From contig NZ_JONN01000001.1 in assembly GCF_000711715.1 (NCBI RefSeq), positions 372,001-436,000 on the forward strand: 64,000 nt of DNA, written 5' to 3'. The notes under the pieces were generated by a model. The model was not told where the DNA came from, ran no database searches, and saw nothing but the letters and a program-made list of their open reading frames with translations. Position numbers and translations under genes: made by a program. The DNA is from Sphingomonas astaxanthinifaciens DSM 22298. Its GTDB lineage: Bacteria > Pseudomonadota > Alphaproteobacteria > Sphingomonadales > Sphingomonadaceae. The number at the start of each line of letters is the position of its first letter. Positions within the stretch are counted from its first letter, which is position 1. Below, piece by piece: positions 43,215 through 57,474 of the stretch.

Positions 43215-43290
43215 GGGGCTGTAGCTCAGATGGGAGAGCGCTGCAATCGCACTGCAGAGGTCAGGGGTTCGATTCCCCTCAGCTCCACCA
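43215..43290 (+). tRNA. tRNA-Ala (CGC)
   Basis: A complete 76-base cloverleaf with acceptor GGGGCTG/CAGCTCC including the alanine identity pair G3:U70, D arm AGCTCAGATGGGAGAGC, anticodon stem CTGCA/TGCAG around ATCGCAC (anticodon CGC, codon GCG), T arm GGGGTTCGATTCCCC and encoded CCA. Its 3' half is the left copy of the island attachment repeat, so the insertion left the gene intact. Confidence 0.95.
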
Positions 43291-43292
43291 GC
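43240..43292 (+). repeat. Attachment site attL (3' half of tRNA-Ala)
   Basis: Fifty-three bases from within the anticodon arm of tRNA-Ala to two bases past its CCA are repeated exactly, and in the same orientation, at 55371-55423. A tRNA 3' end duplicated in direct orientation is the signature of tyrosine-recombinase integration. Confidence 0.9.
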
Positions 43293-43361
43293 CGCACCGG
43301 TCACAATTTCAATGTCTTAGCTGTTTAAGGGCGCCGCTTGGGCCCATGGTCACGCGCCTGC

Positions 43362-43380
43362 GGTATCGCACTGGTATAAC
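43362..43380 (+). repeat. Candidate recombinase arm-type repeat, left end
   Basis: Two boxes, GGTATCGC (43362-43369) and GGTATAAC (43373-43380), spaced by three bases lie 70 bases inside attL. The same two-box arrangement is found 79 bases inside the right repeat. Confidence 0.5.
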
Positions 43381-43423
43381 GTAGTCGCGCTGCCGATGTG
43401 AACCGCGCGGCGTGCAGTGGCAA

Positions 43424-44797
43424 TTAGGCACGAATCCAAAGCTTGCCGCTGGCAAATGCCCAGATCGACAGCAGCGCAGCGGCGGCTTGGCTACATGCGA
43501 CGATCAAGGCGAGCGCGACATAGGATCCACCGAGATGGAAGATCGCGAGCCATCCAAGTCCGCCGGCAATCGCAAGGCGCACGGTTCCCGCGATGGTGGT
43601 CCAGGCCGGCCGTCCGCTTCCTTGCGAGACGAAGGCAAGAAGAAAGGCCGTGGCCAGCGCGGGATAGGCGATCGCCATGATCCGAAGGTAGGTCGAACCG
43701 GCGGCGAAGATCGCCGGGTCTTTTGTGAACAGCCCGAGCCAGACTGTCGGGCGAGCCGCCAGGATGAGTCCGACGGCGCCTGCGAAGCCAGCTGCAATGC
43801 CTGTCCCGACAATGGCAATCCGCTTCGCTCGAGCCACATCGCCGGCGCCGGTGCAGGTTCCCACCATCGTCAGCACGGCGCTCCCAAGTCCGAAGAGGAC
43901 CGGCACGAGAAGATATTCGACCCGCGACGCGATGCCGTATCCAGCGAGCGCTTCCGCACCGAAATGCCCCGCTGCAGCGGTGACGAGGACAACCGCCAGA
44001 TTGAGCTGCACGACCGAAAGCGAGGAAAGCAGTCCCACGCCGAGAATGCGTCCGAACGCTTTCCTGTCGAGGCGGTGGCGGCGGAGAGAAAGGTTCGTCC
44101 GTCCCTGCCGCAAGAGCCGCAGCAAGAACACGGCCGCTGCCGCGTAGAACAGGGTGACCGCGACGCCTGCGCCCGTGATGCCCATGCCCTGCAGCGGACC
44201 GAAGCCGAAGATCAGCAAGGGCGAGAGCGGGACAAGTGTGACGATGCCCGCGAGTGATATTCTGGCCGGGGTTTTGACGTCCCCGGACCCGCGCAAAGCC
44301 GCCGAGCAGAGATTGACCGTCCAGATCGGCACACTGCAAAGGAAGAGCCAGTTCGAATAACGAAGCGCTTCGTCGATCGGCGCGCCCTGCAAGCCGAGCG
44401 CCCCGTAAATGATTGGGCCGGCGAGCCACATGGCCGCGCTGAAGCCCGCGCCGATCAAGACCGCCAGCACGACTGCGTGGAAGAGCAAGGCATCGGCGTC
44501 GTCATGGTGCCCGGCGCCAATCGCGTTGGAAACCGCCGCGGCGACTCCGCCGCCCATCCCGCCGGCGGACATCATCGTCATAAGCATCCACAGCGGAAAG
44601 ACCGCCGCGACACCGACGAGCGCGTCGCTACCGAGCCGCGCGACGTAATAGGTCTCGGCAACGCCAACGACGGTCTGGGCCACCAGCACAGCGATCGTCG
44701 GGAGCGACAGGCGTGCGAGCGGCGGAAGGATCGGTCCATCAAGGACAGCCGACCGAATGTCCTGTTGACGCTCGGGCCGCAGCGCGACCGCGCTCAT
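43424..44797 (-). CDS. MATE family multidrug efflux transporter
   Basis: A 457-residue inner-membrane protein with about twelve hydrophobic segments in two similar halves. N-terminal features are LARLSLPTIAVLVAQT and VGVAETYYVARLG; the second half begins with the equivalent GLLSSLSVVQLNLAVV. This matches MATE exporters, which expel cationic drugs or dyes using Na+ or H+ gradients. Its ATG overlaps the stop of the HxlR-type regulator (ATGA), forming a regulator-exporter operon. The stop lies 132 bases from attL, at the left end of the island. Confidence 0.88.
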   Translation of the reverse strand: MSAVALRPERQQDIRSAVLDGPILPPLARLSLPTIAVLVAQTVVGVAETYYVARLGSDALVGVAAVFPLWMLMTMMSAGGMGGGVAAAVSNAIGAGHHDDADALLFHAVVLAVLIGAGFSAAMWLAGPIIYGALGLQGAPIDEALRYSNWLFLCSVPIWTVNLCSAALRGSGDVKTPARISLAGIVTLVPLSPLLIFGFGPLQGMGITGAGVAVTLFYAAAAVFLLRLLRQGRTNLSLRRHRLDRKAFGRILGVGLLSSLSVVQLNLAVVLVTAAAGHFGAEALAGYGIASRVEYLLVPVLFGLGSAVLTMVGTCTGAGDVARAKRIAIVGTGIAAGFAGAVGLILAARPTVWLGLFTKDPAIFAAGSTYLRIMAIAYPALATAFLLAFVSQGSGRPAWTTIAGTVRLAIAGGLGWLAIFHLGGSYVALALIVACSQAAAALLSIWAFASGKLWIRA

Positions 44798-45120
44798 CGT
44801 GCCGATCCTCCTTCGGCATCGTGAGGGTGCGGATCATTGGCCCATTGCTCCGACCATCGATCCAGGGCTTCGACGATCTCGCGGACCGCCTTGCCCTTTT
44901 CGGTCAGGCGGTAGACCGCACGATTGGCTGGCTCCGGAAGATAGTCCTTCACGAGAACCCCTCTCTTTTCGAGCTCTTTCAATCGAGCAGCGAGGAGATT
45001 CGCGGTGATGCCGTCGATCTTATTCCGAATAACGGAGAAGCGGGTCGGTCCGTCGAGGAGGACTCGCAGGACTGGCAGGCTCCACTTCGCCGACATGATG
45101 GCCTCGGCCTCAGGCCTCAC
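44794..45120 (-). CDS. HxlR family winged-helix transcriptional regulator
   Basis: A 108-residue DNA-binding protein. KWSLPVLRVLLDGPTRFSVIRNKIDGITANLLAARLKELEKRG has the MarR/HxlR winged-helix pattern (listed here as two blocks: KWSLPVLRVLLDGPTRFS and GITANLLAARLKELE). It ends in a charged dimerisation helix. No Cys for redox sensing is present. It starts with GTG 45120 overlapping the upstream small gene's stop (GTGA), and its own stop overlaps the MATE start, so all three are coupled. It probably represses this operon in response to a drug or aldehyde; that is inference. Confidence 0.85.
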   Translation of the reverse strand: MRPEAEAIMSAKWSLPVLRVLLDGPTRFSVIRNKIDGITANLLAARLKELEKRGVLVKDYLPEPANRAVYRLTEKGKAVREIVEALDRWSEQWANDPHPHDAEGGSAR

Positions 45121-45314
45121 AGTTCGCTGCCCGGCGCATCCGCCCCGCGCCTGCCTTCGAGCGCTTCCTCGACCTTTAGAAGCCGTCCCTCGATTGCCGT
45201 CAGGCGACTGGCGGCGACGTCATGTTCGCTGAAATCCATCGCCAGCGCCCACGCGTTCAGCCAGGCGCCAATGCGCGAGAAAAGTCCTCGCGAGCGGACA
45301 TCCTCATTCGTCAT
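45117..45314 (-). CDS. Small hypothetical protein, first gene of the MATE operon
   Basis: A 65-residue protein with a helical first part (LFSRIGAWLNAWALAMDFSEHDVA) and a coiled-coil-like second part (SRLTAIEGRLLKVEEALEG). It resembles no family I can name. Its stop overlaps the GTG start of the HxlR gene, and an ATG at 45314 follows a purine-rich stretch (AAGGAGACTGAAA), so it is likely translated. The amphipathic N-terminal helix might associate with membranes. Function is unknown. Confidence 0.6.
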   Translation of the reverse strand: MTNEDVRSRGLFSRIGAWLNAWALAMDFSEHDVAASRLTAIEGRLLKVEEALEGRRGADAPGSEL

Positions 45315-45377
45315 TTTCAGTCTCCTTGAGGCGGGTTCGAAGCGTCGGGGCGACCGGCCGTCCTCGGGTCATGACAA

Positions 45378-48300
45378 TCAGGCCGGAAGTGCGCGCGCGT
45401 GGGCGGGCTCGGACTCAGCCGAAGGCGACGTGTCCGGAGGCGTGATCTTGAACCAGAGTGCGTAGAGTGCGGGCAGGAAGAGTAGCGTAAGTACGGTCCC
45501 GCCGAGCGTGCCGCCGATCAGGGTGACCGCCATCGATCCCCAGAAAACGGATTCGATCAACGGAACGAAGGCGAGGACGGCGGCGAGCGCAGTCAGGATG
45601 ACCGGGCGGGATCGCTGGACGGTCGCTTCGACGACTGCGTCGTAGGCCGACATGCCCTCCTTCTCGTTATCGTGGATCTGACCGATCAGGATGAGCGTGT
45701 TGCGCATTAGGATGCCGGCGAGGGCAATCAGGCCGAGAATGGCATTGAACCCAAAGGGCTGCCCGGTGACGAGCAAGGTCGGCACGACCCCGATCAGACC
45801 CAGCGGAGCGGTCAAAAGCACGATCGCCATGGCCGACAGGCTGCGAACCTGGAGGATGATAACGACCATCATCAGCACGACCATGATCGGGAAGATCGGT
45901 GCCAGCGCCTCGTTCGCCTTGCCGGCCTCCTCGATGGAACCCGCCATGTCGATCCGGTAGCCCGCCGGCAGAGTGTCGATGATCGGCTGCAGTTTCTCCA
46001 TCATTGCCGTGGAGACATCGGGCGGCTGCAGGCCATCGGCGATGTCGCCGCGCACGGTGATGGTTGGCACGCGGTCGCGCCGCTGGAGAAGCGGATTCTC
46101 CATTTGCACGACTACCTTCCCGATCTGACTGACCGTCACGCGCTGGCCGCCTGACCCGGTGAGGACGTAATCGGCGATGCGCTGCGGATCGAGGCGGTCT
46201 GCCCCTGACGAGCGCGCGACCACGTCGACCGTCCGGATATCTTCCCGGGCCTGCGAGACGGTGACGCCGGTCAGCAGGAACTGCAGCTGTTCGGCGACAT
46301 CGGCGGACGTCAGACCAAAGGAACGCAGGCGGTCTTGGTCGAGGACGATGCGCATCGCCGGAGCCCGCTCGCTCCAGTCGAGATTGACCGTGCGCATCAT
46401 CGGGTCGTCCTGCATGACGATCTTAACCCGCTCGGCAATCGCGCGGACCTCGGCGAGGTCGGGGCCATTGACCCGGAACGCCACGGGGAATGGAGAAGGA
46501 GGACCGAACACCAGCTGCGTAGCCCGCACGCGGGCCGAGGGGGCCAGCCCGTCTGCTACGGCCTTGCGAAGCCGTAGCTTCAGCGCGTCCCGCTCCTCCT
46601 CATTGTCGGTCCGAACGACGATCTTCGCGAACGACGGATCGGGCAGCTCCGAATTGAGCGACATGAAGAAGCGCGGAGCGCCCTGGCCGATATAGCTGGT
46701 GACAATCTTGGCCTCGGGCTGCCTGCGCAGCCAGCGCTCGACTTCTTCGGTCGACTTGCTCGTGGTGGCGAGCGCGGTGCCCTTGGGAAGATAGACCTCG
46801 ACCAGGAGTTCGGGTCGGTCGGACGTCGGGAAGAATTGTTTCTTCACTGGGCCCATGCCGATCCCGGCGAGTATGAACGCGCCCAGCGTTGCGAGCGCGA
46901 CCAGTTTCTTGCGCGCAACGGCCCAGGAGATGAAGCGACGCACCCGCTGGTAGCGCGGCGTCTGATAGATGGCGGCGTGCCCCCCTTCGACGGGCTTGAT
47001 GGCCGGGAGCAGCTTGACGCCCATGTACGGCGTGAAGATCACGGCGACGAACCACGACGCGATCAGCGCGAAGCCGACGACCCAGAAGATGTTGCCCGCA
47101 TATTCCCCGGCAGAGGATTGGGCGAAGCCGACGGGCATGAGGCCAATGACGGTGACGAGGGTTCCCGCCAGCATCGGCGCGGCGGTATGGCTCCAGGCAT
47201 AGGCCGACGCACGGATGCGGTCGTAACCCTCCTCCATCTTCACCACCATCATCTCGATGGCGATGATGGCATCGTCGACCAGCAGGCCGAGCGCGAGGAT
47301 CAAGGCGCCGAGCGTGATGCGGTCGAGCACCCGTCCGGTCGCCCACATGATGACAAGCACAATGGCCAGCGTCAGGGGAACGGCAGCCGCGACCACGATC
47401 CCGACCCGCCAGCCGAGGCTGAGAAGGCTGACGATCATCACAATGGCCAAGGCCTCCAGGAAGGTCTTCATGAACTGGTTGACCGCCGCCCTGATGTTGA
47501 CGGCCTGGTCGGTCACCGGTGTGAAGGTCATGCCGAGCGGCAGCTCGGCCTGGATCTTGGTGACTTCGTCATTGAGGGCCTTGCCGAGCTCCAGACCATT
47601 CCAGCCCTGGCGCATGACGACGCTCAGGAGGATCGCGGGCTCGCCCTCGCTGCGGATCTGGAAGGTCGCCGGATCCTCGTAGCCGCGCCGAACCGTGGCG
47701 ATCTCCGACAGTCGCAGCGTCGTTCCGTTGGCGACGATGGGAAGCGCGCGGATCTTCTCGAGATCGTCGAATGCGCCGTCGAGCCGGACGACTACGCTTT
47801 GCGCCTTGGTTTCGATCGATCCGGCCGGGGTCAGGAGGTTCTGCTGGCCGAGCGCGTCGAGGATGGTGCGGGGATCGACGCCGAGCGTCGCCAGGCGTTT
47901 CTCGTCAAACTCCACGAAGATGCGCTCGGGCTGTTCGCCGAGAATCTTGATCTTGTTCACGCCCGGGACGTGGAGCAATCGCTGGCGCAGTTCCTCGGCA
48001 TCGCGGGCGAGCTTGCGCTGCGGCTCGCCCTTGGCCTTCAGAGCGTAGAGCGCGAAGGTGACATCGCCATATTCGTCGTCGATGAAGGGTCCCGCGACGC
48101 CTCGCGGCAGCTTGCGCTGTTCGTCGGCGAGCTTCTTGCGGGCCTGGTAGAATTGCTCCGGCACCTCGGAGGGCGGAATCTTGTCCTTCAGCCAGACCGT
48201 CATGAAGACCTGACCCGGGCGGGTGAAGGTATCGACCCGGTCGTACCAGCGAAGTTCCTGAAGCCGCTTCTCGATCGGCTCGGCGACTTGCTCCTGCATC

Positions 48301-48506
48301 TCCGCGGCGGTGGCGCCTGGCCAGGCGGCCGCAACCGTCATCACCTTGATGGTGAAGCTCGGATCCTCGGCGCGGCCGAGTTTCAGGAAGGCGATCGTCC
48401 CGGCCATAATGATAGCCATCAGGAAGAAGAGGGTGACCGACTTCTCGCGGACGGCGAGCGCGGAGAGGTTGAAGCGGCTGGGGGCCGCGCCGCCATCGCC
48501 GATCAT
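45378..48506 (-). CDS. RND efflux transporter permease (HAE-type)
   Basis: A 1042-residue inner-membrane proton/drug antiporter with twelve membrane segments and two large periplasmic loops. Conserved features are the N-terminal FFLMAIIMAG segment, PGATAAEMQEQVAEPIE, and the proton-relay motif LLVDDAIIAIEMM in TM4. A second set of helices follows about residue 870. It pairs with the adaptor gene just upstream (four-base overlap) and the outer-membrane factor encoded divergently at 50345. The closest type is the single-permease AcrB-like/MexF-like group with relatively short loops; substrates are unknown. Confidence 0.92.
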   Translation of the reverse strand: MIGDGGAAPSRFNLSALAVREKSVTLFFLMAIIMAGTIAFLKLGRAEDPSFTIKVMTVAAAWPGATAAEMQEQVAEPIEKRLQELRWYDRVDTFTRPGQVFMTVWLKDKIPPSEVPEQFYQARKKLADEQRKLPRGVAGPFIDDEYGDVTFALYALKAKGEPQRKLARDAEELRQRLLHVPGVNKIKILGEQPERIFVEFDEKRLATLGVDPRTILDALGQQNLLTPAGSIETKAQSVVVRLDGAFDDLEKIRALPIVANGTTLRLSEIATVRRGYEDPATFQIRSEGEPAILLSVVMRQGWNGLELGKALNDEVTKIQAELPLGMTFTPVTDQAVNIRAAVNQFMKTFLEALAIVMIVSLLSLGWRVGIVVAAAVPLTLAIVLVIMWATGRVLDRITLGALILALGLLVDDAIIAIEMMVVKMEEGYDRIRASAYAWSHTAAPMLAGTLVTVIGLMPVGFAQSSAGEYAGNIFWVVGFALIASWFVAVIFTPYMGVKLLPAIKPVEGGHAAIYQTPRYQRVRRFISWAVARKKLVALATLGAFILAGIGMGPVKKQFFPTSDRPELLVEVYLPKGTALATTSKSTEEVERWLRRQPEAKIVTSYIGQGAPRFFMSLNSELPDPSFAKIVVRTDNEEERDALKLRLRKAVADGLAPSARVRATQLVFGPPSPFPVAFRVNGPDLAEVRAIAERVKIVMQDDPMMRTVNLDWSERAPAMRIVLDQDRLRSFGLTSADVAEQLQFLLTGVTVSQAREDIRTVDVVARSSGADRLDPQRIADYVLTGSGGQRVTVSQIGKVVVQMENPLLQRRDRVPTITVRGDIADGLQPPDVSTAMMEKLQPIIDTLPAGYRIDMAGSIEEAGKANEALAPIFPIMVVLMMVVIILQVRSLSAMAIVLLTAPLGLIGVVPTLLVTGQPFGFNAILGLIALAGILMRNTLILIGQIHDNEKEGMSAYDAVVEATVQRSRPVILTALAAVLAFVPLIESVFWGSMAVTLIGGTLGGTVLTLLFLPALYALWFKITPPDTSPSAESEPAHARALPA

Positions 48507-49573
48507 CGTGCGGCGATCCGGACCGGCTGGCCCTGGTGCAATAGATGCGCGCCCATGGCGACGATGCGCTCGCCGGGCCGGATGATGGCGTTGATCCGCG
48601 CGGTTTCCTCGCCGAGCGACAGGATCTGGATCGACCGCCAGGCAACGGTCGGTTGCTTGCCGCCGCGGATGATCCAGACGCCCGGCCCCTTGCCTGCGTC
48701 GAAGATGGCGGAGAGAGGGACCTCGAAACCGGCGCTTTGCCCCGGGCGAGGAAGGTCGATGGTGACCGTCGAACCCAGCGGGGCACCGCCCGCCGCGCCG
48801 CTCAGGACATAGCGGGCCTCGAAGGTCCGGGTGGCCGGATCGGCCGCATCGGACAGCTGCCGCAGCGTCGCGGGGCCGCTCGCGCCCGCATAGGTTCGAG
48901 CGCTGGCCGAGGAGCCGATTGGCGGCCGGATGGTCTCTGGCAATTGCACCAGTGCCTCGCGCGGGCCCGAGCGAGCGATCCGCAAGACTACCTGCCCGGC
49001 CCCAACCACTTGTCCGGGCTCAGCGAGTGTCTCCGTGATCGTCCCGTCGGCATCGGCGACGAGGACGCTATATGCTGCGGCATTCCGGGCGACCCGGGCT
49101 TCGGCCTGCGCCGCCTGCAACTGTGCACGCGCGGCGTTCGCGGCCGCCTTGGCCTGATCGTAAGCGGAAGCCGAAACGGCGCCGGCGCCGACTAGGCCTC
49201 GAAGGCGCGCCTCGTCGGCGGCTGTCTGCGTCGCGCGGGCTTGGGCAGCCTGGACGGCGCTGATCGACGCGCTGGTGGCGAGAGACAGATCGGTGCCGTC
49301 GATCCGCATCAGGGGCTGCCCCCGGCGGACCGATTGGCCAGCGTTGACGAAACGGCCGACGACCTTGCCCCCGACCCGAAATCCCAGATCGCTCTGAACC
49401 CGGGCAGCAACGACGCCGGTAAAGGACTGCAAACCCGCCTCGCCCGATAGGGGCACCGTGACCCTCACCAAAGGTGGGAGGGTACGCGGATCGGCCTCCG
49501 ACGAACTGCACGACGTTAATGCCAGTGCCGCGAGTGCCGTGGCCGTGGTCAGGAAACAGGAGCGAGCGGTCAC
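48503..49573 (-). CDS. RND efflux periplasmic adaptor (lipoprotein)
   Basis: A 356-residue membrane fusion protein. A lipobox (LTSC, Cys about 21) anchors it to the inner membrane. The biotinyl-lipoyl half motifs (GFRVGGKVVGRFVNAGQSVRRGQPLMRID and VLVADADGTITETLAEPGQVV regions) flank an alpha-helical hairpin (AQAARAQLQAAQAEARVA type), then beta-barrel domain. It bridges pump and outer-membrane channel. GTG 49573 is preferred over TTG 49576 because GGAGGA lies seven bases upstream. Its stop overlaps the permease start. Confidence 0.9.
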   Translation of the reverse strand: MTARSCFLTTATALAALALTSCSSSEADPRTLPPLVRVTVPLSGEAGLQSFTGVVAARVQSDLGFRVGGKVVGRFVNAGQSVRRGQPLMRIDGTDLSLATSASISAVQAAQARATQTAADEARLRGLVGAGAVSASAYDQAKAAANAARAQLQAAQAEARVARNAAAYSVLVADADGTITETLAEPGQVVGAGQVVLRIARSGPREALVQLPETIRPPIGSSASARTYAGASGPATLRQLSDAADPATRTFEARYVLSGAAGGAPLGSTVTIDLPRPGQSAGFEVPLSAIFDAGKGPGVWIIRGGKQPTVAWRSIQILSLGEETARINAIIRPGERIVAMGAHLLHQGQPVRIAAR

Positions 49574-49613
49574 CAACGATTCCTCCGAGGTTCGGAGGAA
49601 TGAGTGCCATCAA

Positions 49614-49639
49614 TGTGACTAGTGTGTCAACTGGTCACA
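49614..49639 (-). promoter_or_regulatory. Operator upstream of the RND pump operon
   Basis: An inverted repeat TGTGAC (49614-49619) and GTCACA (49634-49639) lies between the tetR stop (49646) and the adaptor start (49573). Its core GTGAC-N14-GTCAC has the same spacing as the repeat at 50301-50326. On the minus strand, TTGACG precedes it, as a -35 would. Confidence 0.6.
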
Positions 49640-49645
49640 CGTCAA

Positions 49646-50263
49646 TCATGGTGCCAAACTTCGAAGGATCAGATTGGTCACCTCATTTTGCGCATCGGGA
49701 AGCAGGTCGAGATTGCGTTCGAGGTGCAGCGGATCGATGAAGGGCATCATGGCGTAGAAGATGGCTCGGCAGGTTTCGTCGATCGGAGTCTTGCGTTCGA
49801 ATTCGCCTTGCTCACGCCCTTCCCGGACGATCGCCTGGATCATTTCCTGCAGCGTCGAGCGATACTTCCGATAGGAATTCCACTCCTCGGCGGCCGAGTG
49901 AGCGGCGATGTCGTAGATCTTCCGATCATCGAAGAAGAGCTCGACGCTCAAAGCCGAGATATTGCGGAAAAACCGCCGAAACTTCTCGGTGGCAGAGGTC
50001 ACGTCGGCGATAGCGCTCGACGTCGATTCGACGATCCGGTCGAGGCGGGAGGTACAGATCGTCTCGCCGATGGCCTGCTTCGATTCGAAGAAGCGATAAA
50101 CATAGGCCTTAGAGAACCCGATCTCGCGAGCGAGGTCGGCGACTGTCGTCTTGTCATAGCCGTAACGCGCAAAGCAGGCATAGGCGGCCCGCACGATCTG
50201 ATCGCGCACGGCATGTTCGGTAGGACCCCGAAGGGCGGTGTCGGCGGAAGCGGTGCTCGGCAT
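49646..50263 (-). CDS. TetR/AcrR family repressor
   Basis: A 205-residue regulator. The N-terminal helix-turn-helix is RDQIVRAAYACFARYGYDKTTVADLAREIGFSKAYVYRFFESK in pattern (key parts: TTVADLAREIGFSK and YVYRFFESK, about residues 22-66), with a C-terminal ligand-binding domain (FYAMMPFIDP near the end). The ATG at 50263 is used, since the upstream frame begins with TTG. The gene lies between the pump genes and the outer-membrane factor, with a matching inverted repeat on each side, so it most likely represses both pump transcription units. Confidence 0.9.
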   Translation of the reverse strand: MPSTASADTALRGPTEHAVRDQIVRAAYACFARYGYDKTTVADLAREIGFSKAYVYRFFESKQAIGETICTSRLDRIVESTSSAIADVTSATEKFRRFFRNISALSVELFFDDRKIYDIAAHSAAEEWNSYRKYRSTLQEMIQAIVREGREQGEFERKTPIDETCRAIFYAMMPFIDPLHLERNLDLLPDAQNEVTNLILRSLAP

Positions 50264-50291
50264 GACTTGTCCATACACGGCCAAGCGATCC

Positions 50292-50326
50292 TTGACAAAC
50301 AGTGACCATATTGGATATCGGTCACT
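50292..50326 (+). promoter_or_regulatory. Operator/promoter of the outer-membrane factor gene
   Basis: An inverted repeat AGTGACC (50301-50307) and GGTCACT (50320-50326) sits in the gap between divergent tetR and the outer-membrane factor gene. A consensus -35 TTGACA (50292-50297) overlaps its upstream edge, so a bound repressor would block RNA polymerase. Confidence 0.7.
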
Positions 50327-50344
50327 ATTGGGAAGGATCAGCTT

Positions 50345-51814
50345 ATGTCCTCACGTCGTGCACGCCTTATTGCCGGCATCTTGTCCGCATCGCTCAGCGG
50401 CTGCGCAGTCGGTCCGCGCTACGTTGCGCCCGCGTCATCGGTCGCAACCAGTTTTCCTTCCACAGCGGCGATGGATGCCCGGAGTACTGGCCCGACCTCG
50501 GCCGAACTCGCGACGTGGTGGCAATCGTTCAACGATCCGATACTCAGCGCATTGGTTGAGCGCGCCCTCGCGCAGAATCTCGATCTTCAGCAGGCTGGCG
50601 CGCGGGTCGCGCAGGCACGCGCCGCGCTCAGCGGCGCAAATGCTTCCCTTCTCCCTTCGGGGTCGGTCAGCGCGAATGCAGGACGGGCGTATCAATCGCT
50701 GGAGACTCCCACCGGACAGATCGCCAGCGCCTTCGGATCAAATCGTGCCGTCAGCACCTACGACATTGGTGTCGGGGGAAGCTGGGAGATCGATGTCTTC
50801 GGCGGCAAGGACGCCGCGCGTGACGCCGTTCGAGCTGACTGGCAGGCCTCGGCGGCCAGCGCGACGGCTGTCCGGCTCGCCATCGCCGCGCAGACCGCCG
50901 ACACCTATGTCGCGATCCGAGCGCTGCAGGCTCGTCTGGCCCTCGCCAGGGAGCAGGTCGCCACCCAGAGCAAGCTAACGGACCTAATCGCGCTTCAGTA
51001 TCGCCGTGGGATCGCTGCCGAGCTCCAGCTCCGCCAGAGCGAAGGGGCCTTGGCCCAACTCAAGGCGTCCGTGCCGGCGCTTCAGAATGATCTCGATCGA
51101 TCGATGAACGCGCTCGACGTCCTGCTTGGACGCGAGCCGGGCGCGGCGCGCGGGGAGTTGGCCCTTGCTGCCCCGATCCCGACGCCCCCGGCTATCTCGA
51201 GCGCCGGAGGACCCACCGCCCTTCTTCGCCGCCGCCCCGACGTCATCGCCGCTGAGCGAACGTTGGCGGCCTCGAACGCGAGGATCGGGGCCGCGATGGC
51301 GGAATATTATCCCAAGTTCTCGCTGAGCGGCCTGCTGGGGAGCGCGACGGTGTCGTTGGGGGGACTTCTCGGGTCCAATTCCCTGCAGGCGGGAGGCTTC
51401 CTAGGACTTCGTTGGAGGCTCTTCGATTTCGGCCGCGTGGATGCCGAGATCAGGGCTGCCAAGGGGCGCAACGCCGAAGCGTTGGCCGCTTATCGCCAGA
51501 CGGTGCTGCGTGCTTCGCAGGACGTCGAAGACGCTTTTTCCACGCTCATCCAGCAGGAAGTCAGGGCGGCGGCCTTGCGGGATGGCGAAGCCTCCCTCGC
51601 GCGTGCGCGCCAGACCTCCGAAGCCGCTTACAAGGGCGGCGTCGTCAGCCTGATCGAGGTACTCGACGCAGACCGTCGACTTCTCGACGCGCGCGACGGA
51701 TTGATTCAGGCTCGCGCCGCGGCGACCCGAGGTGCGATCGCCTCATTCCGGGCGTTGGGCGGTGGATGGCAGGCACCTAAGCCCGATGGAGGCCTCGATG
51801 TCGCCAATCGTTGA
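50345..51814 (+). CDS. RND efflux outer-membrane factor (NodT/OprM-type lipoprotein)
   Basis: A 489-residue lipoprotein (lipobox LSGC, Cys about 20) of the TolC-like family. It has CAVGPRYVAP after the lipidated Cys, WWQSFNDPILSALVERAL, long helices rich in Ala/Gln/Leu, and RRRPDVIAAERTLAASNARIG, the conserved equatorial motif. It forms the trimeric exit duct for the pump encoded at 45378-49573. ATG 50345 follows GGAAGGA. It is transcribed divergently from tetR. Confidence 0.92.
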   Translation: MSSRRARLIAGILSASLSGCAVGPRYVAPASSVATSFPSTAAMDARSTGPTSAELATWWQSFNDPILSALVERALAQNLDLQQAGARVAQARAALSGANASLLPSGSVSANAGRAYQSLETPTGQIASAFGSNRAVSTYDIGVGGSWEIDVFGGKDAARDAVRADWQASAASATAVRLAIAAQTADTYVAIRALQARLALAREQVATQSKLTDLIALQYRRGIAAELQLRQSEGALAQLKASVPALQNDLDRSMNALDVLLGREPGAARGELALAAPIPTPPAISSAGGPTALLRRRPDVIAAERTLAASNARIGAAMAEYYPKFSLSGLLGSATVSLGGLLGSNSLQAGGFLGLRWRLFDFGRVDAEIRAAKGRNAEALAAYRQTVLRASQDVEDAFSTLIQQEVRAAALRDGEASLARARQTSEAAYKGGVVSLIEVLDADRRLLDARDGLIQARAAATRGAIASFRALGGGWQAPKPDGGLDVANR

Positions 51815-52262
51815 TGCTGCGCTCAGCGGGCTGGAGCAGGTCGAACAACTTCTTCAGGCCGGGCTCCAACCTCCATTCGGTCGGAAAACGCGAGTGTCAT
51901 TGATCGAGGCCGCTCACGGCCACTCGGTGTTCGAGGGGCGACCCGACGAAAGCGACTACAATCCGATGGGGACTGTCCATGGCGGTTATATCGCGGCCAT
52001 TCTCGACAGCGCCTGCGGGATCGCCGCCCACACCGGGCTGAGGCCGTTCCAGGCCTACACCACCGCCGATCTGAAGGTGTCCTTCCTGCGACCGCTCACG
52101 GAACGCAGCGGAGTCGTCCGAGCGATCGGCAAGCTCGTCTCGATCGGGCGAAGGGCCGCATTCTCCGAGGCCGAATTGCGCGACGAGCAAGGACGCCTGT
52201 GCGCGACTGCTTCATCGACCCTGATCGTCTTCGATCGGAAGAGTGAGCGCACCACTGCCTGA
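51798..52262 (+). CDS. PaaI-type hotdog thioesterase
   Basis: A 154-residue acyl-CoA thioesterase with the hotdog motif NPMGTVHGGYIAAILDSACG (Asn, HGG and Asp are the expected active-site residues), an Asp-containing strand and TTADLKVSFLRPL. The start ATG 51798 lies inside the end of the outer-membrane factor gene (17-base overlap) and has GGAGG upstream; ATG 51786 is possible. Coupling to an efflux operon suggests removal of an acyl-CoA intermediate, but this is only inferred. Confidence 0.85.
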   Translation: MSPIVDAALSGLEQVEQLLQAGLQPPFGRKTRVSLIEAAHGHSVFEGRPDESDYNPMGTVHGGYIAAILDSACGIAAHTGLRPFQAYTTADLKVSFLRPLTERSGVVRAIGKLVSIGRRAAFSEAELRDEQGRLCATASSTLIVFDRKSERTTA

Positions 52263-52312
52263 CGGCAATCACGACATTTTCATTCTCACGCAAAACGAGG
52301 GGCACGCACGTC

Positions 52313-53134
52313 ATGGACCAATCTCGCTCGAAGGCATCGAAAGTTATCCTGGTGACCGGGGCTTCTTCAGGCATCGGCAAAGCAACGGCGATCGCGCTCG
52401 CCGAGGCCGGTCATCGGGTTTTCGCCGGCGTCCGGAAGCCTTCGGAAGCCATCGTGCATCCTCTGGTCGAGCTCGTGAAGCTCGACGTTACCAATCCCGA
52501 CGATGTCGTCAGCGCGGTCGCACACGTCGAGCGCGAGGCGGGTCGCCTCGACGTCCTCGTGAATAACGCCGGGACCTCCCTCGTCGGTGCCGTCGAGGAG
52601 ACCAGCGACAAGGAAGCGTCGTCGCTGTTCCAAACTAACTTTTTCGGCCCTCTTCGGCTCAGCCGGGCAGTTCTGCCTCTGATGCGCCGCCAGGGCCAGG
52701 GCCTGATCGTGAACGTGAGTTCGGTCCTCGGCTTCCTCCCTGCGCCTTTCATGGGACTGTATGCGAGCAGCAAGCACGCGCTTGAAGGTCTCTCGGAATC
52801 TCTCGATCACGAAGTCCGGTCGTTCGGGGTGCGCGTGATCCTGGTCGAACCGAGCTTCACCAGAACCAGCCTTGACACCAACGCATCCGTCGCCTCGACA
52901 GGCATCGACGAGTACGCCGCAGCCCGATCGAAGTCCGTCGCGGCTGTCCGGCGCCAGATCGCCGAGGCCCCGCCGCCGTCGGGCGTTGCAGCCGAGATTC
53001 TGTCCGTAATCGACGGAAAGCACCACCTTCGCCGCCCCGCAGACCGCCGCGCGCGTATCCTGAGCAAACTTCGCCGGTGGGTGCCTGCGGCGCAGTTCGA
53101 TAAGAGTCTCCGCGCCTCCTTTGGGCTGAGCTGA
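52313..53134 (+). CDS. Short-chain dehydrogenase/reductase
   Basis: A 273-residue SDR with TGASSGIGKATAIAL, NNAGTSLVGAV, catalytic NVSSVLGF, YASSKHALEGLSESL and VEPSFTRT. The longer C-terminal part (GVAAEILSVIDGKHHLRR) is typical of classical SDRs that act on lipids or aromatics. It follows the thioesterase after 50 bases with a weak ribosome-binding site and likely closes the outer-membrane factor operon. Substrate unknown. Confidence 0.88.
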   Translation: MDQSRSKASKVILVTGASSGIGKATAIALAEAGHRVFAGVRKPSEAIVHPLVELVKLDVTNPDDVVSAVAHVEREAGRLDVLVNNAGTSLVGAVEETSDKEASSLFQTNFFGPLRLSRAVLPLMRRQGQGLIVNVSSVLGFLPAPFMGLYASSKHALEGLSESLDHEVRSFGVRVILVEPSFTRTSLDTNASVASTGIDEYAAARSKSVAAVRRQIAEAPPPSGVAAEILSVIDGKHHLRRPADRRARILSKLRRWVPAAQFDKSLRASFGLS

Positions 53135-53400
53135 TCGAACGTCGTCCTTCGCAGATTGACCCCCGGAGATTCGAAAGGCTGCTCTCGGCCAAGTGCAAAC
53201 GTCCGGCGACAAGGGGAAAAAAAGAGATACAATGAGGAAGGGCGAGCGATTGCTCCACCCGAGCAAATGAAATGGTTTGGGTTGAGGAGCGATAAATCCT
53301 AAAAGGATACGCCTTTGTTTTTCTATCGATTTTACAACGTAACGCGGGTTGTCGACCATCGACTCCTTGCCCGCAATCCCATCGGCAAGGCGGCCTAGAC
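53135..53400. other. A+T-rich intergenic region in the island
   Basis: This 266-base stretch contains no gene. Its second half (53270-53345) is notably A+T-rich, with runs such as TTTGTTTTTCTATCG, and probably holds the promoter of the next three genes. The change of composition here separates the efflux module from the right-end module. Confidence 0.5.
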
Positions 53401-53946
53401 GTGGCAGACTACAAGGCCGATCGGTCCAGGGTCTCAGTGGACGTCGCTGGTGGCGTGATTCCCGGCGAGTTCAATGGCACAATCAACCGCAGCGACGAGG
53501 TAGTGGGGCGCCGGATCACGCTGCACGAGGGCAACTCGACCTGCCAGCGCCAAGAGCTGATGATTCCGCCGCACGCCACTGACATGCTTCGAGACGTGAG
53601 CTCGATCCTGCGGCGCTACGAGAGCCAGCGCTTACCGGAGATGCGGGATCTGATGATCCTTTTCACGGTCAGGTTCAGACCGGGGGGCACCTTCCACGCG
53701 CAGTTCGAAGCTGCTCGTTCGTTTGCATGGGCCAAACTCTGCGTTGAGCGCCGGCTGCCCGTCGTACTGGTCCAGCATCAGCCCGGGCTGAGCGGCTATT
53801 CGGAAGGCAAGCCGCACATCCACATGCTGATTTTCGCCAGGGAACTCCACGACAGCAATTTCCTTGGGTTCACCCCGCTTCTTAAGGGCTCTCCCAAGGT
53901 CACCCTCGCCGCCGAGTGGGCCGCCTGGCCCGACCGGAACGCCTGA
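53401..53946 (+). CDS. Hypothetical protein with HxH (HUH-like) motif
   Basis: A 181-residue protein. The C-terminal part contains YSEGKPHIHMLIFARELH, where PHIHMLIFA matches the hydrophobic-flanked HUH motif of relaxases and rolling-circle Rep nucleases; a Tyr lies eight residues before it. The N-terminal half is beta-rich with no recognised motif. It begins with GTG 53401 and has AAGGCGG upstream. Position in the right-end module of a tRNA island fits a mobilisation-related or defence gene, but no catalytic Tyr arrangement can be confirmed, so nuclease activity is speculative. Confidence 0.6.
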   Translation: MADYKADRSRVSVDVAGGVIPGEFNGTINRSDEVVGRRITLHEGNSTCQRQELMIPPHATDMLRDVSSILRRYESQRLPEMRDLMILFTVRFRPGGTFHAQFEAARSFAWAKLCVERRLPVVLVQHQPGLSGYSEGKPHIHMLIFARELHDSNFLGFTPLLKGSPKVTLAAEWAAWPDRNA

Positions 53947-54021
53947 CCCTCAATTCATCGCGACCATCAGCCTCCGCCCTGTGGCGAAGACTCGCACACA
54001 CTTGCACTCAAGGAATACCAA

Positions 54022-54747
54022 GTGAAGACCGTCACCATCGACGTCGAAACCACTCTCGACGAAGAGGCTGCCAACCGCTGCAGCTACGTCCCGACCGGCG
54101 ATTTCGCCCCGTTCCCGCTCCATCAGATCGTATGCGCCAGCGCGCTTGTCGTGATAGAAAGCCCAAAGGGCGAGAGTTTCTACGCCCTCGAGACCTTTTC
54201 GCGCGGCTCGATGAGCGAGCGGGGTATCATTCTTTCGCTCGAGACGGTTGTCGACGACGCGGACGTCGTCGTGAGCTTCAACGGATATCAGTTCGACCTT
54301 CCCGTGATCAGGGCTCGAGCGGCTCTGTATGAACTTCACATCCCGAGGCTCATCGAGACGCACAATCGTTCGAGGGTGGGAAAGCACCTCGACCTCTTCG
54401 ATCAGCTGAAGAGGACAGCGTCGCCGGCCGGCCTCGCGCAGGTCTGCGCGCCCTTCGGCATTCCCGTGAAGCAGGAGTCGGCGAATACGGTCGCCGACCT
54501 CGTAGTTCGAAACGACTGGGCCGCTCTCGAAGCCTATTGCGAGAGCGACGTCATCGGATCTTGGCTCGCTAGCCTCTTCTGGAACAAGGTCCATGAGCCG
54601 GGAGCCGCTCAGACAGCTTGGCGTGCGTTCGCCTCGTGGGCAGTCGAGCACGCCAGCGAATATCCGAGCGTCGCAGCGTTTGCGTCCGTTCCGGAACCGC
54701 CTCGTCAGACCTACCCGTCTCGTGGCCTGGACGATTTAGACTTCTGA
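54022..54747 (+). CDS. Predicted 3'-5' exonuclease (DEDD family)
   Basis: A 241-residue protein with the four acidic motifs of DnaQ/PolB-like exonucleases: TIDVETT (Asp and Glu), SFNGYQFDLPVI (Asp) and, near the C-terminal side, YCESDVIGS (Tyr and Asp, DEDDy-like). Such free-standing exonucleases occur on plasmids and islands. The GTG start has AAGGA seven bases upstream. It lies 75 bases after the HxH protein on the same strand, suggesting an operon. Confidence 0.8.
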   Translation: MKTVTIDVETTLDEEAANRCSYVPTGDFAPFPLHQIVCASALVVIESPKGESFYALETFSRGSMSERGIILSLETVVDDADVVVSFNGYQFDLPVIRARAALYELHIPRLIETHNRSRVGKHLDLFDQLKRTASPAGLAQVCAPFGIPVKQESANTVADLVVRNDWAALEAYCESDVIGSWLASLFWNKVHEPGAAQTAWRAFASWAVEHASEYPSVAAFASVPEPPRQTYPSRGLDDLDF

Positions 54748-54843
54748 CAAAGAGTGGCGGCATCGGATCGGTGCCGCCGCTCTCACGGGGTGAGACCCAC
54801 TTGAGGAAGTGGCCCTTCGGCAATGATGCCCGAAGGAAAAGTA

Positions 54844-55242
54844 ATGGAATCAGGTTCTCACGATGCGACGCTCAGCAACTGGATCATCTGCGAGCTGTCG
54901 GATGGCCGACGTTTTCTCGCCGGTAAAGTGTTCGGTGATCGCAAGCGGCGCTTCAGGGAGGGCGCATACATCACCACGTCGCTCGTCGTCAGCCCTACCG
55001 AGGCGATAATCGACGGGAAGATCATCGAGACGCTCAACAGCCATTACCTGCTCACCGAACGCAACAAGCCTGATGACGAGATCTTCGCCAAGCTGGACGC
55101 CTGGCTGGCACAGCAGCCATCCCCGCCCACGCTGTTCGACGTTTTCGCCGTGCGAGACATCGATCTTTTGAACGCCTTCATACTTCGGGGCTTCCGGGCA
55201 GCGGCCGCCGAGGCAGCATGGCGCGCCAAGGATGGCGGCTAA
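54844..55242 (+). CDS. Hypothetical protein, right-end module of the island
   Basis: A 132-residue protein with a beta-rich N-terminal half (WIICELSDGRRFLAGKVFGD, GAYITTSLVV) and a helical C-terminal half (LLNAFILRGFRAAAAEAAWRA). I do not recognise it. The frame also has ATGs at 54823 and 54826, but AAGGA six bases before 54844 decides the start. It ends 128 bases before the right attachment repeat, where an integrase would normally be expected. Confidence 0.6.
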   Translation: MESGSHDATLSNWIICELSDGRRFLAGKVFGDRKRRFREGAYITTSLVVSPTEAIIDGKIIETLNSHYLLTERNKPDDEIFAKLDAWLAQQPSPPTLFDVFAVRDIDLLNAFILRGFRAAAAEAAWRAKDGG

Positions 55243-55273
55243 TGCAACGGCAATGCGCGACCTCGCGAACGTT

Positions 55274-55292
55274 GGTATCGCGCCGGTATCGC
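55274..55292 (+). repeat. Candidate recombinase arm-type repeat, right end
   Basis: Two GGTATCGC boxes (55274-55281 and 55285-55292) with a three-base spacer lie 78 bases before the right attachment repeat. The block from 55274 matches the left-end block at 43362 in 14 of 16 bases. Confidence 0.5.
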
Positions 55293-55370
55293 AAATGGCT
55301 CGATCTGGTCGCAAAGAGCGTGTAGGATCGTCTTCTAAGTCGCAGAAATCGGCGCTTTCGATAGTTTGCT

Positions 55371-55423
55371 GCTGCAATCGCACTGCAGAGGTCAGGGGTT
55401 CGATTCCCCTCAGCTCCACCAGC
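55371..55423 (+). repeat. Attachment site attR (tRNA-Ala 3' half copy)
   Basis: An exact 53-base copy of tRNA-Ala 43240-43292 including the T arm and CCA. The sequence before it diverges from the tRNA 5' half, so this is not a second gene but the right end of the insertion. It lies where the chromosomal flank or a second element continues. Confidence 0.9.
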
Positions 55424-55869
55424 TTCTCAATGAGTTAGCTGGTCCTCCCACCGGTCGTACGAAGTATGTACGGAAATGAGGTTGCTTATCTAAAGGCGCC
55501 CACTCACCTTAAGCGAGCGCAAGGGAGCAATTTCCGCCCCCAGGCAATTAAGCACTGACGAGCAGTCGCCCGAGTTGCGCGGCCGTCTCTGGGCAAATTT
55601 TTGCAGCTGCCAATCAAGGCAGGATCACATCTCGACAGTTGGCCAAGCAGTGGAGCACCGAACACGGCGAAGATGCTTTTCGAATCGAGCACGGGATGAG
55701 TCGTGAAGAGTGGGCCGAAGAGCAGGCTCGTGGTGGCATGGGGAGGCGCGAAGCGAAAAAGCGCGCTCGTGGACTTATGATCGAAGCGCGCGAAGAGGAT
55801 GTCGCCGCCCGCAGCTAAGCGGAAGCGTTTTGGAACGCTGCCATGAAGTGCCTCGGGAAGGACTGAATC
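55424..55869. other. Gap right of attR, decayed sequence
   Basis: No intact gene. An open frame free of stops runs from 55552 to the TAA at 55816-55818 and reads like a protein remnant (SREEWAEEQARGG near its end), but no start codon with a ribosome-binding site lies at its beginning; only ATG 55696 is available. TCAATGAGTTAGCTG (55427-55441) resembles TCAATGTCTTAGCTG (43309-43323) downstream of attL. Confidence 0.5.
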
Positions 55870-56001
55870 TCAGAGGATTTTCTGGACGCTTACGTTATCG
55901 ATCTGCCCGGTGAATGAAGCCGTGTCGGCCTCGATGTAAGAGTCGGTGCCGTCTGCCACGAAGGTGGTCGAGATCAGCACATGGCGGTCTCCCGCCAGCA
56001 A
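55870..56001 (-). pseudogene. 3' fragment of a phage-structural-like gene
   Basis: Forty-three codons ending at TGA 55870 encode a beta-strand-rich tail (SYIEADTASFTGQIDNVSVQKIL). That ending is characteristic of the C-terminal carbohydrate-binding-like domain found in many phage tail or structural proteins. The frame upstream loses similarity, and no start fits. The 22-base DNA segment 55880-55901 matches 57098-57119 in 18 positions, showing homology with the fragment at 57088. Confidence 0.5.
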
Positions 56002-56117
56002 GCCGCGTTGGCCGCAGATCAGCTTCTTCTGTTGCTTTCGCCGTCCCGCAGTACGCAACACGCGAAAGAATATCAGCAGGACTAGACGATAGCCATCTTG
56101 TTGATAAGTTCTCTACT

Positions 56118-57110
56118 ATGCTGGGGCGATTACTGCATCGATTGAAGCACGGCATTCCTGACGCTGAGATCAGGTCTCCCTTCAATCCCGTGACCGTGCC
56201 AATTTACTTGATTGTTTTTCTGTTTCTGCTCGCCGGGTTCGGCAGCCTCTATGCGACGGGCTTTCGACTTGGGCCTAATCTGTCCCTAGAAATTCCTCTG
56301 ATTGCGCCTTTTATGATCCTCTCGGCATGGGCTAGCCGCCGGGTGGGGCATTGTAAGATCGCTGACTGCCTCGAGACGACAGCCCTCTACGGTCTTTTCG
56401 GGATTGGCGCCTTGGCTGCCACAATTGCTGGCAGCACTAGTCCGGCTCCATTGGCGGACAGCCTTCTGGCGCGGGCAGACGCTATGATCGGGTTAGACTG
56501 GCCAGCCCTTGTGAAAGCCATCCCGCCTTGGGCCGATCAGCCTCTCATGGTCGCGTACAGGAGCTTCCTTCCTCAGGCGCTTTTCCTTCTGCCCCTGATG
56601 GTCGCTGTAGATCGGAATTCGACCGCTTGGAGAATGCTGATCGCTCTGTATCTCGCATTGGCGGTCGCGATAATTGTATATCCGCTCACGCCAGCAATTG
56701 GCCCATACCTACTGAACGGTATGCAGCCAGCGGAGGCCTACGGGCCTTATCCAATGGCATATGGCCCGGCCATTCAGGCGATCCGCAACGGAGAGCGGGT
56801 GGTGACCAATGAAATGGTTACCGCCTACGTCTCCATGCCGAGCTTCCACGCTTCTTCGGCCCTTGTTTACATGTGGGGTGCTTGGCGCCTGCCGCTAATT
56901 CGCTGGCCTATTCTCGCGCTTAACATGACAATGATTTTTGCTGCCATGCCTGCTGGCGGGCATTACTTTGTTGATCTGATCGGCGGAGTTCTCGTTGGCG
57001 CTGCTGCTATTTGGCTTAGCGGGCCAATCTTGCAGGCAAGTGCACGGGCCGATGGAAGTAACCTGCTCGGTCATGAGGAGCAGCCGTTTAAAGAACCTTC
57101 TGAACGCTGA
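56118..57110 (+). CDS. PAP2 superfamily membrane protein, island copy
   Basis: A 330-residue polytopic protein with about six membrane segments and the catalytic motifs PSFHASSALV and GGHYFVDLIGG. It is a relative of the PAP2_3 protein at 28100 (shared GLDWP/GFDWP, P(S)FHA and GxHY(L/F)VD blocks), but the two differ widely elsewhere. Base composition is lower in GC than the core genes, and it lies among phage-like fragments, so it was probably acquired. It may modify lipids or polyprenyl phosphates; phage-borne PAP2 genes could alter the cell surface. ATG 56118 is chosen as the first Met before the first membrane segment. Confidence 0.8.
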   Translation: MLGRLLHRLKHGIPDAEIRSPFNPVTVPIYLIVFLFLLAGFGSLYATGFRLGPNLSLEIPLIAPFMILSAWASRRVGHCKIADCLETTALYGLFGIGALAATIAGSTSPAPLADSLLARADAMIGLDWPALVKAIPPWADQPLMVAYRSFLPQALFLLPLMVAVDRNSTAWRMLIALYLALAVAIIVYPLTPAIGPYLLNGMQPAEAYGPYPMAYGPAIQAIRNGERVVTNEMVTAYVSMPSFHASSALVYMWGAWRLPLIRWPILALNMTMIFAAMPAGGHYFVDLIGGVLVGAAAIWLSGPILQASARADGSNLLGHEEQPFKEPSER

Positions 57111-57474
57111 CGTCATCCACGAAGCCGACACTCACAAGCAGGGTATTGCTCGCCTTTGACGTAACGCGGATCTTGTTCGCGCTGATCGCCTTGATCTTCA
57201 TGACAAGCCGGTAGGTCTCGCCGTTTACGAACACGCCTGTTTGAGACAGACGATCACTAGCGGACACACCCACTGCAGTTACGCCGCTAAGAGAGCATCC
57301 GCCCGTGGCTGACCAAGCTGAAGTCGATCCGAACGATCCTTTTGCGACTTTATCCGAGCCTAGCTGGCTGTGAGTATAGATGACCTCGTGCACCTCGATG
57401 TTGGTCAGTGTGCCCATGAACAAAGACCCGTCCGCATGAATGCGCAGTATTCCCAGCAATCTTCCGCGGTCCAT
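57088..57474 (-). pseudogene. Truncated phage-structural-like protein
   Basis: A 128-residue frame (ATG 57474) rich in Ser, Thr, Gly and Val, with a beta-sandwich-like segment (GSTSAWSATGGCSLSG, GETYRLVMKIKAIS) and the ending VDDVSVQKVL, typical of C-terminal domains of phage tail or decoration proteins. It is far shorter than such proteins usually are and is probably a remnant. Its 3' end overlaps the PAP2 gene's end by 23 bases, and is homologous to the fragment at 55870. Confidence 0.5.

Follow-up and report, generated by a model that had tools for sequence, protein, structure and literature searches.

Introduction

Which enzyme could move a genomic island that encodes no integrase? The question is raised by a 12-kb efflux island of Sphingomonas astaxanthinifaciens DSM 22298, lying within a stretch of 64,000 nucleotides (contig NZ_JONN01000001.1, positions 372,001 to 436,000; hereafter the window) between two copies of the 3′ end of a tRNA-Ala(CGC) gene. 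An earlier note, made from the letters of the window alone, took the island for a decayed or non-autonomous passenger dependent on an integrase elsewhere. This proposal is supported here by an empty insertion site in a relative (genome G021) and by the failure to find an integrase inside the island. With a probability of roughly two in three, the island is an integrase substrate without an integrase, carrying attachment (att) ends of the type belonging to IntA, a tyrosine integrase of P2-like prophages, and moved in trans. That IntA would be the enzyme acting in trans is suggested by comparison of these ends.

Insertion at tRNA-Ala(CGC)

The earlier note described a direct 53-bp repeat of a tRNA 3′ end bounding the module, and this description holds: the two copies are identical at 53/53 positions, stand 12,131 bp apart from start to start and consist of the final 51 nt of the tRNA-Ala(CGC) gene, called by ARAGORN, plus two bases (Table 1). 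A 34-nt piece of the tRNA matches the window twice at up to 3 mismatches, with 0 matches in 100 shuffles. Throughout the genome of the strain (G000; 2,533,034 bases in 3 contigs, 99.97% complete) a 75-nt tRNA query finds 3 places: tRNA-Ala(CGC) itself, its partial copy and one more, which is 86% identical.

The corresponding site was compared in stretches from 28 genomes of the genus, some of them ended by contig ends. In G021 it is closed up, the aligned start of the FeRedox gene lying 168 bp past the tRNA, a distance that in the window is 14.25 kb to the corresponding residue, with gene order as in the window (quinone oxidoreductase, PRC, tRNA-Ala(CGC), FeRedox, methyltransferase, kinase (HK), pnp, rpsO). 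The gap between tRNA and FeRedox measures 0.8 kb in G031, 3.4 kb in G009, 5.5 kb in G011 and 13.3 kb in G017. For the remaining 23 of the 28 stretches no FeRedox turned up past the PRC-side tRNA; contig ends close some of these, and in G008 the gene lies ~150 bp past a second tRNA copy on a different contig. The distance downstream to pnp is 3 to 4 kb in G021, G031, G023 and G018 and larger in others, reaching 136 kb in G029. The 12-kb block is an insertion at tRNA-Ala(CGC) and, given the closed-up site of G021 and the variable gaps in relatives, the site is a hotspot of integration that stands empty in at least one genome. The empty tRNA-Ala site that the earlier note proposed to look for is thus present, and the finding it named as fatal to its proposal, the same genes in all relatives with no empty site, did not occur.

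Paired putative arm-type sites at both ends

Tyrosine integrases such as that of P2 work with arm sites that lie in pairs on either side of the core. Just inside each end of the island two GGTATCGC sites stand in direct orientation, 11 nt apart, three of the four being exact; these paired sub-terminal repeats are new with respect to the earlier note. The total count of GGTATCGC in the 64 kb is unremarkable (5 copies against 1.6 expected, with 3 of 100 shuffles reaching 5); three of the five copies fall in the two short non-coding ends of the island. As a control on the spacing, only 0.4% of 20,000 random 120-nt stretches of the window hold any exact 8-mer repeated 11 nt apart. Paired arm-type sites flanking the core are described for mycobacteriophages in PMC3203893.

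The pattern recurs in relatives at the same tRNA. The sequence GGTATCGCNNNGGTATCGC occurs at 7 places in 5 of the 71 genomes of the genus (G000, G013, G029, G064 and G084), all within ~100 nt of a tRNA-Ala(CGC) core, and a reversed control gave 0. A search across the order (396 genomes, up to 1 mismatch) matched 9 places in 6 genomes, with one match for the reversed control (G051); a place in G375 (L128), lacking a tRNA core, was discounted as a chance match. Six elements bounded by an attL and an attR were measured, of 12.1 kb (G000, the window island), 34.6 kb (G013), 125.3 kb (G029), 64.8 kb (G064, its contig ends joined as circular), 18.5 kb (G084, the second of two tandem elements, whose own left core is without an intact tRNA) and 37.7 kb (G406, of another genus). 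In all six, the sites are placed at +71 to +73 and +82 to +84 of attL and at -102 to -100 and -91 to -89 of attR. These 24 arm positions are exact in 21 cases, the remainder being one site with 1 mismatch (G029), one with 2 (attL of the window) and one lost (G064). Their two 47-nt cores differ by 0 mismatches in G000 and G406, 1 in G029 and G064, 4 in G013 and 5 in G084. The motif is no general companion of the tRNA: no GGTATCGC lies 300 nt or less from 30 of 35 tRNA-Ala cores, and the five cores that do have it are two in the window, two in G029 and one in G013. Elements with this geometry are here termed class A.

Three further loci bear arm pairs of this class in other settings. L142 (G395) and L143 (G417, with three sites in a row) carry them upstream of a core that matches tRNA-Ala over ~26 nt only, possibly as unintegrated or off-target att sites. 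In L135 (IMGVR_UViG_2636415887_000005) the pair adjoins the apparent 3′ end of a different tRNA, where ARAGORN finds no whole tRNA, which suggests that arm and core specificity may be exchanged separately.

A candidate integrase family

The same arm sites stand at tRNA-Ala(CGC) in G324 and G406, of another genus, where a tyrosine-recombinase gene runs into attL (L129 and L133). The two IntA proteins are 65% identical, both narrowly pass the PF00589 cut-off, and the arm pair sits in the last codons of intA, which in both encode the tail RYQRDT. Compared with these loci and with L144-L161, the spacer between the arm sites differs in the islands that lack intA. An IntA homologue 52% identical to that of L133 lies ~6 kb inside the G013 island, and G064 retains a short C-terminal IntA piece beside attL, inverted relative to the others. 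An IntA profile found none in the G029 island, the class-A element of G084 or the window island.

IntA is associated with phages. Among viral contigs of IMG/VR, 18 of 34 candidate stretches are IntA relatives, and 14 of these 18 loci carry the arm pair at the 3′ end of intA. A tRNA-Ala 3′ end adjoins the pair in 5 of the 18, most of the others ending at the intA stop codon. The G406 element encodes a terminase, a scaffold/protease, a tape measure protein and baseplate proteins and, from these protein families as read here, appears to be a P2-like prophage. No relatives of the L133 IntA were found in 50,697 deposited phage records (tblastn, 1e-5). A tblastn search of the six islands with open reading frames (ORFs) from G406 and the 18 viral stretches gave 47 rows, 0 of them on the window island and 0 on that of G084. 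The shared att geometry puts IntA forward as the candidate integrase family. With class-A core and arm geometry present, P2-like structural and packaging genes unmatched and intA not found, the window island is classed, on its sequence, as a class-A (IntA) attachment substrate and not as an autonomous class-A element.

Searches for a recombinase in the island and its genome

Within the genome of the strain PF00589 has 3 matches, none of them in the window even at E up to 10, and the serine recombinase search (PF00239) has 0. The IntA profile gave nothing on the island except a match of E 0.87 at 55244-55306, which was rejected as the arm sites read as codons. With PF00589, PF00239 and the IntA profile all lacking a true match inside, the statement of the earlier note that neither end encodes a recombinase agrees with these searches, and no integrase has emerged between the repeats on closer annotation, the finding by which it would have stood corrected. 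It had also proposed a search for a tyrosine recombinase beside a tRNA-Ala elsewhere in the genome; by PF00589 there is none. Two of the three genomic matches were set aside as helpers because they read as XerC/XerD (from length and sequence, with no family call), and the third was likewise passed over, as it adjoins tRNA-Gly and no direct repeat of 25 nt or more was found in the 12 kb around it. None of the 120 IntA relatives listed, of 275, lies on a contig with the length of one of this genome.

Weighing the explanations

If the island is moved in trans, the following course may be proposed. IntA supplied by a co-resident or incoming prophage or island, such as those of G406 or G013, would bind the GGTATCGC arm repeats and join attL and attR, and the island would be excised as a circle whose attP has two arm sites on each side of the core. 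The circle would then insert at a tRNA-Ala(CGC) gene and recreate the tRNA. Transfer between cells might proceed by mobilisation, aided by the relaxase-like protein R1 encoded near the right end, or by carriage with a helper element. In the present case the island would have entered with the tRNA on one side and, on the other, what was left of an earlier element of another kind (class C, below).

Several observations weigh against this explanation. No helper is known at present in the strain's own genome, the IntA profile having found no IntA in ~0.94 Mb of its 2.53 Mb, and PF00589 is a weak detector for this integrase group, giving only E 0.002 for the G013 integrase and missing that of G024 at E up to 0.001, which the IntA profile finds at 1.2e-12. 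As no IntA was found, the island is probably immobile in its present genome until a helper arrives. The arm-site function of the GGTATCGC pairs is putative, being based on their position and repetition, and the attL pair of the window is half degenerate. The class-A islands are not all independent either, since those of G029 and G064 share a 3.3-kb segment at 97% identity and a diverged gene block. Finally, an IntA kept whole in G013 and as a fragment in G064 also fits plain loss.

Plain loss is the best of the other accounts and a serious one, though less likely: the island would have entered with its own intA and then deleted it together with its mobility genes, leaving a dead remnant in which the att sites persist. 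The G013 and G064 genes and the degenerate attL site agree with such a history, and a review describes cis-mobilizable elements (CIMEs) as products of decay (PMC5704250). In the window island, on the other hand, no remnant of intA or of a prophage was found, and the stop codon of the multidrug and toxic compound extrusion (MATE) transporter gene lies only 43 nt inside the arm pair. With the repeats identical at 53/53 positions there has probably been little time for decay, 53 nt being weak evidence on this point, and the G029 and G084 islands, which have no DNA in common with the window island, are likewise without intA.

It is very improbable that the island has its own, unrecognised recombinase, with R1 (of predicted HUH-like relaxase fold) or its neighbours R2 and R3 driving insertion. 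The three genes do lie at the right end and recur together in G017 and, beside a serine recombinase and a tRNA-Leu, in G004, and R1 matches relaxase structures; however, the other class-A islands have the same att geometry without the R1-R3 set (only a 34% R1-like match, in G013), the architecture of arms and core is that of a tyrosine integrase, and R1 as read here shows no recognisable catalytic tyrosine. Least credible of all is an origin of the repeat by segmental duplication, or by homologous recombination between tRNA genes, with no site-specific integration, for while a 53-nt repeat alone could be a duplication, the site is empty in a relative, the repeat starts at the anticodon stem-loop as do other distal copies at tRNA-Ala(CGC), and the geometry of paired arm sites at both ends largely refutes it.

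Other islands at the same tRNA

The window island shares no DNA with the four other class-A islands of the genus (blastn, 1e-5). With ORFs called mechanically, it has only three distant protein matches, to a resistance-nodulation-division (RND) protein (23%) and the R1-like protein, both in G013, and to an outer-membrane factor (27%) in G084. What it has in common with them is, by these sequence comparisons, the attachment DNA. In G029 (L081-L085) the 125 kb between the class-A attL and attR hold no match to PF00589 (E up to 10) or PF00239. The tandem of G084 (L102/L101) consists of a class-C element with an integrase beside the hybrid att, followed by the 18.5-kb class-A island, which has ORFs reading as other export genes and in which no IntA was found. 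A 37-kb island at tRNA-Ala(CGC) in G024 (L057 4109-5323 (-), L076 16367) has a different, TCCGGTGCAAGT-like arm pair at each end; next to its attL lies a divergent tyrosine recombinase, missed by PF00589.

Genes of the island

The contents listed in the earlier note, two export systems, a thioesterase, a short-chain dehydrogenase/reductase (SDR) and three right-end genes, agree with the domain matches (Table 1). The MATE and RND exporters with their regulators would alter what the host can export.

Table 1. Features of the efflux island and its right-hand neighbour, in window coordinates
Position	Strand	Feature	Basis
43215..43290	+	tRNA-Ala(CGC), intact, target gene	ARAGORN
43240..43292	+	attL core (53-nt repeat copy 1)	Repeat comparison
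43362..43369	+	Putative integrase arm-type site, exact GGTATCGC, +72 after CCA	Motif position
43373..43380	+	Second putative attL arm-type site, degenerate (GGTATAAC), +83, 2 mismatches	Motif position
43424..44797	-	MATE efflux transporter	PF01554; TIGR00797
44794..45120	-	HxlR-type regulator	PF01638
45378..48506	-	RND permease	PF00873
48503..49576	-	RND periplasmic adaptor	PF16576; TIGR01730
49646..50284	-	TetR-type regulator	PF00440
50345..51814	+	Outer-membrane efflux factor (NodT family)	PF02321; TIGR01845
51789..52262	+	Hotdog thioesterase	PF03061
52313..53134	+	SDR	PF00106
53401..53946	+	R1, predicted relaxase-fold (HUH-like) protein, narrow family	Alignment; structure prediction (low-confidence model), Foldseek, structural alignment
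54022..54747	+	R2, 3'-5' exonuclease-like protein	PF10108 8.8e-20
54823..55242	+	R3, protein of phage families of unknown function	phrog_8840 4.6e-19
55274..55281	+	Putative attR arm-type site 1, exact GGTATCGC, -101 from core	Motif position
55285..55292	+	Putative attR arm-type site 2, exact GGTATCGC, -90 from core	Motif position
55371..55423	+	attR core (second copy of the 53-nt repeat), probably serving too as left core of the adjacent (class C) element	Repeat comparison
55424..57439	.	Second element, decayed further, probably a remnant (PAP2 gene 55914-57110)	Sequence comparison
55457..55475	+	Pair GTACGAAG/GTACGGAA, 11 nt apart, forming the left arm of a class-C element (second class)	Comparison with G012, G008

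The relaxase fold of R1 is a prediction, from a low-confidence model that matches relaxase structures by Foldseek and structural alignment; by sequence, R1 has no match among solved structures at E up to 1. No catalytic tyrosine is recognisable in R1 as read here, judged from where that residue lies in relaxases. On the predicted fold, the island may derive from a mobilizable element. Against plasmids R1 has one weak match (27%), near a tyrosine recombinase on a Novosphingobium plasmid. No relatives of R1 and R2 were found in scans of the genome collection, nor of R1, R2 or R3 in viral scans, and an anti-phage role for R1-R3 was set aside, PADLOC matching none of the three. In G004 (L062 6764-11353) the gene of the large serine recombinase beside R1-R3 runs into tRNA-Leu(CAG), and the locus is a possible mobilizable element with its own integrase.

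A probable second element beyond attR

Directly right of attR stands GCTTCTCAATGAGTTAGCTGG, followed by GTACGAAG and GTACGGAA 11 nt apart. Closely similar DNA lies right of tRNA-Ala(CGC) in G012, with the pair at +38, and a diverged version in G008. The elements of G012 and G084 that have class-C sites near their distal core carry a different integrase (alignment A5) beside that core. From the pair in the window together with these A5 elements, 55424-57439 probably stems from an older class-C element, of which it would be the left part, the right core having been lost; no third core was found in the window, the segment beyond ~55443 has no match in the relatives' stretches, and the class-C (A5) integrase was not found in the strain's genome at E up to 1e-5. 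The array would then probably read tRNA, class-A island, hybrid att and class-C remnant, a tandem accretion, the remnant being a probable addition to the earlier note. According to PMC7563491, decay in such tandems has gone furthest in the element that lies farthest from the target gene, and the same holds here. Minus-strand ORFs at 55870-56061 and 57088-57474 flank the PAP2 gene and have similar end peptides (IDNVSVQKIL and VDDVSVQKVL), as if the gene were flanked by duplicated gene ends.

Relation to known systems

The earlier note called the missing recombinase unusual for tRNA islands, which is too strong, integrase-less islands flanked by att sites being well described (PMC3191183, PMC5704250, PMC7563491). 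A close precedent is the Escherichia coli H47 island (microcin H47), which excises and integrates using functions from elsewhere, a "parasitic strategy" (PMC3191183). Like the window island it is small (~13 kb), flanked by direct-repeat att sites and devoid of recombination genes, but its repeats are 144-148 bp long and 76% identical, and the word tRNA does not occur in the main text of its description (PMC3191183). The window island differs in having a tRNA-Ala(CGC) target and a candidate integrase family named from arm sites, its excision being a proposal from sequence.

CIMEs keep attL and attR, lack recombination genes and often lie in tandem at one target, according to PMC5704250 and PMC7563491. 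The window island resembles them, with 53-nt cores and paired sites kept at both ends and no PF00589, PF00239 or IntA-profile integration gene found inside. CIMEs are defined in these texts as derivatives of integrative and conjugative elements (ICEs) or integrative and mobilizable elements (IMEs), whereas the att sites of the window match a P2-like prophage integrase. R1 is the only hint of descent from an ICE or IME. CIMEs also carry no genes for conjugation or mobilisation; the window island has R1, with a predicted relaxase fold in which no catalytic tyrosine is recognised. A CIME moves in cis once accretion has joined it to an autonomous element, and a tandem arrangement is seen in the window too. 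An IME has both an integrase and a relaxase of its own; in the window island no integrase was found, and R1 is only relaxase-like.

The P2-like IntA prophages share with the island the tRNA-Ala(CGC) core, where flanking sequence is included, and the arm-site sequence or a close variant, in G406 (offsets within 1 nt) and in the 14 IMG/VR loci. They differ in carrying intA and, for G406, phage genes. Phage satellites such as phage-inducible chromosomal islands (PICIs) and P4-like elements are similarly small, att-flanked and perhaps dependent on a helper phage. They typically include an integrase gene (PMC13376191), and in the window island no packaging or regulatory module was recognised. Within the literature searched no paper was found combining Sphingomonas, genomic island, tRNA-Ala and integrase, nor did titles and abstracts yield anything on the IntA attachment family. 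Integrase-less att-flanked islands and paired arm-type sites in phages are already known; what is new is the set of islands, their type of att geometry and the integrase put forward as candidate.

Significance

The sequence of an integrase-less island usually gives no hint of the enzyme able to move it. Here the sub-terminal arm repeats serve as a bar code by which islands at one tRNA may be sorted into attachment classes, and for one such class a candidate integrase family can be named, so that the question of what moves an island without an integrase becomes a two-component test. They also suggest a search rule, namely paired direct repeats one helical turn apart at a fixed distance inside tRNA-end repeats. 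As a tentative generalisation, tRNA-Ala(CGC) in sphingomonads may be the common docking site of a guild of "att-parasite" islands that have no integrase, measure 12 to 125 kb and differ largely in cargo. They would retain only the core and the arm sites used by the integrase of a P2-like prophage, and would be moved whenever such a prophage or an IntA island enters. Adaptive genes, here two efflux systems, would thereby travel on a borrowed phage integrase, perhaps with an atypical, relaxase-like R1-R3 module for transfer.

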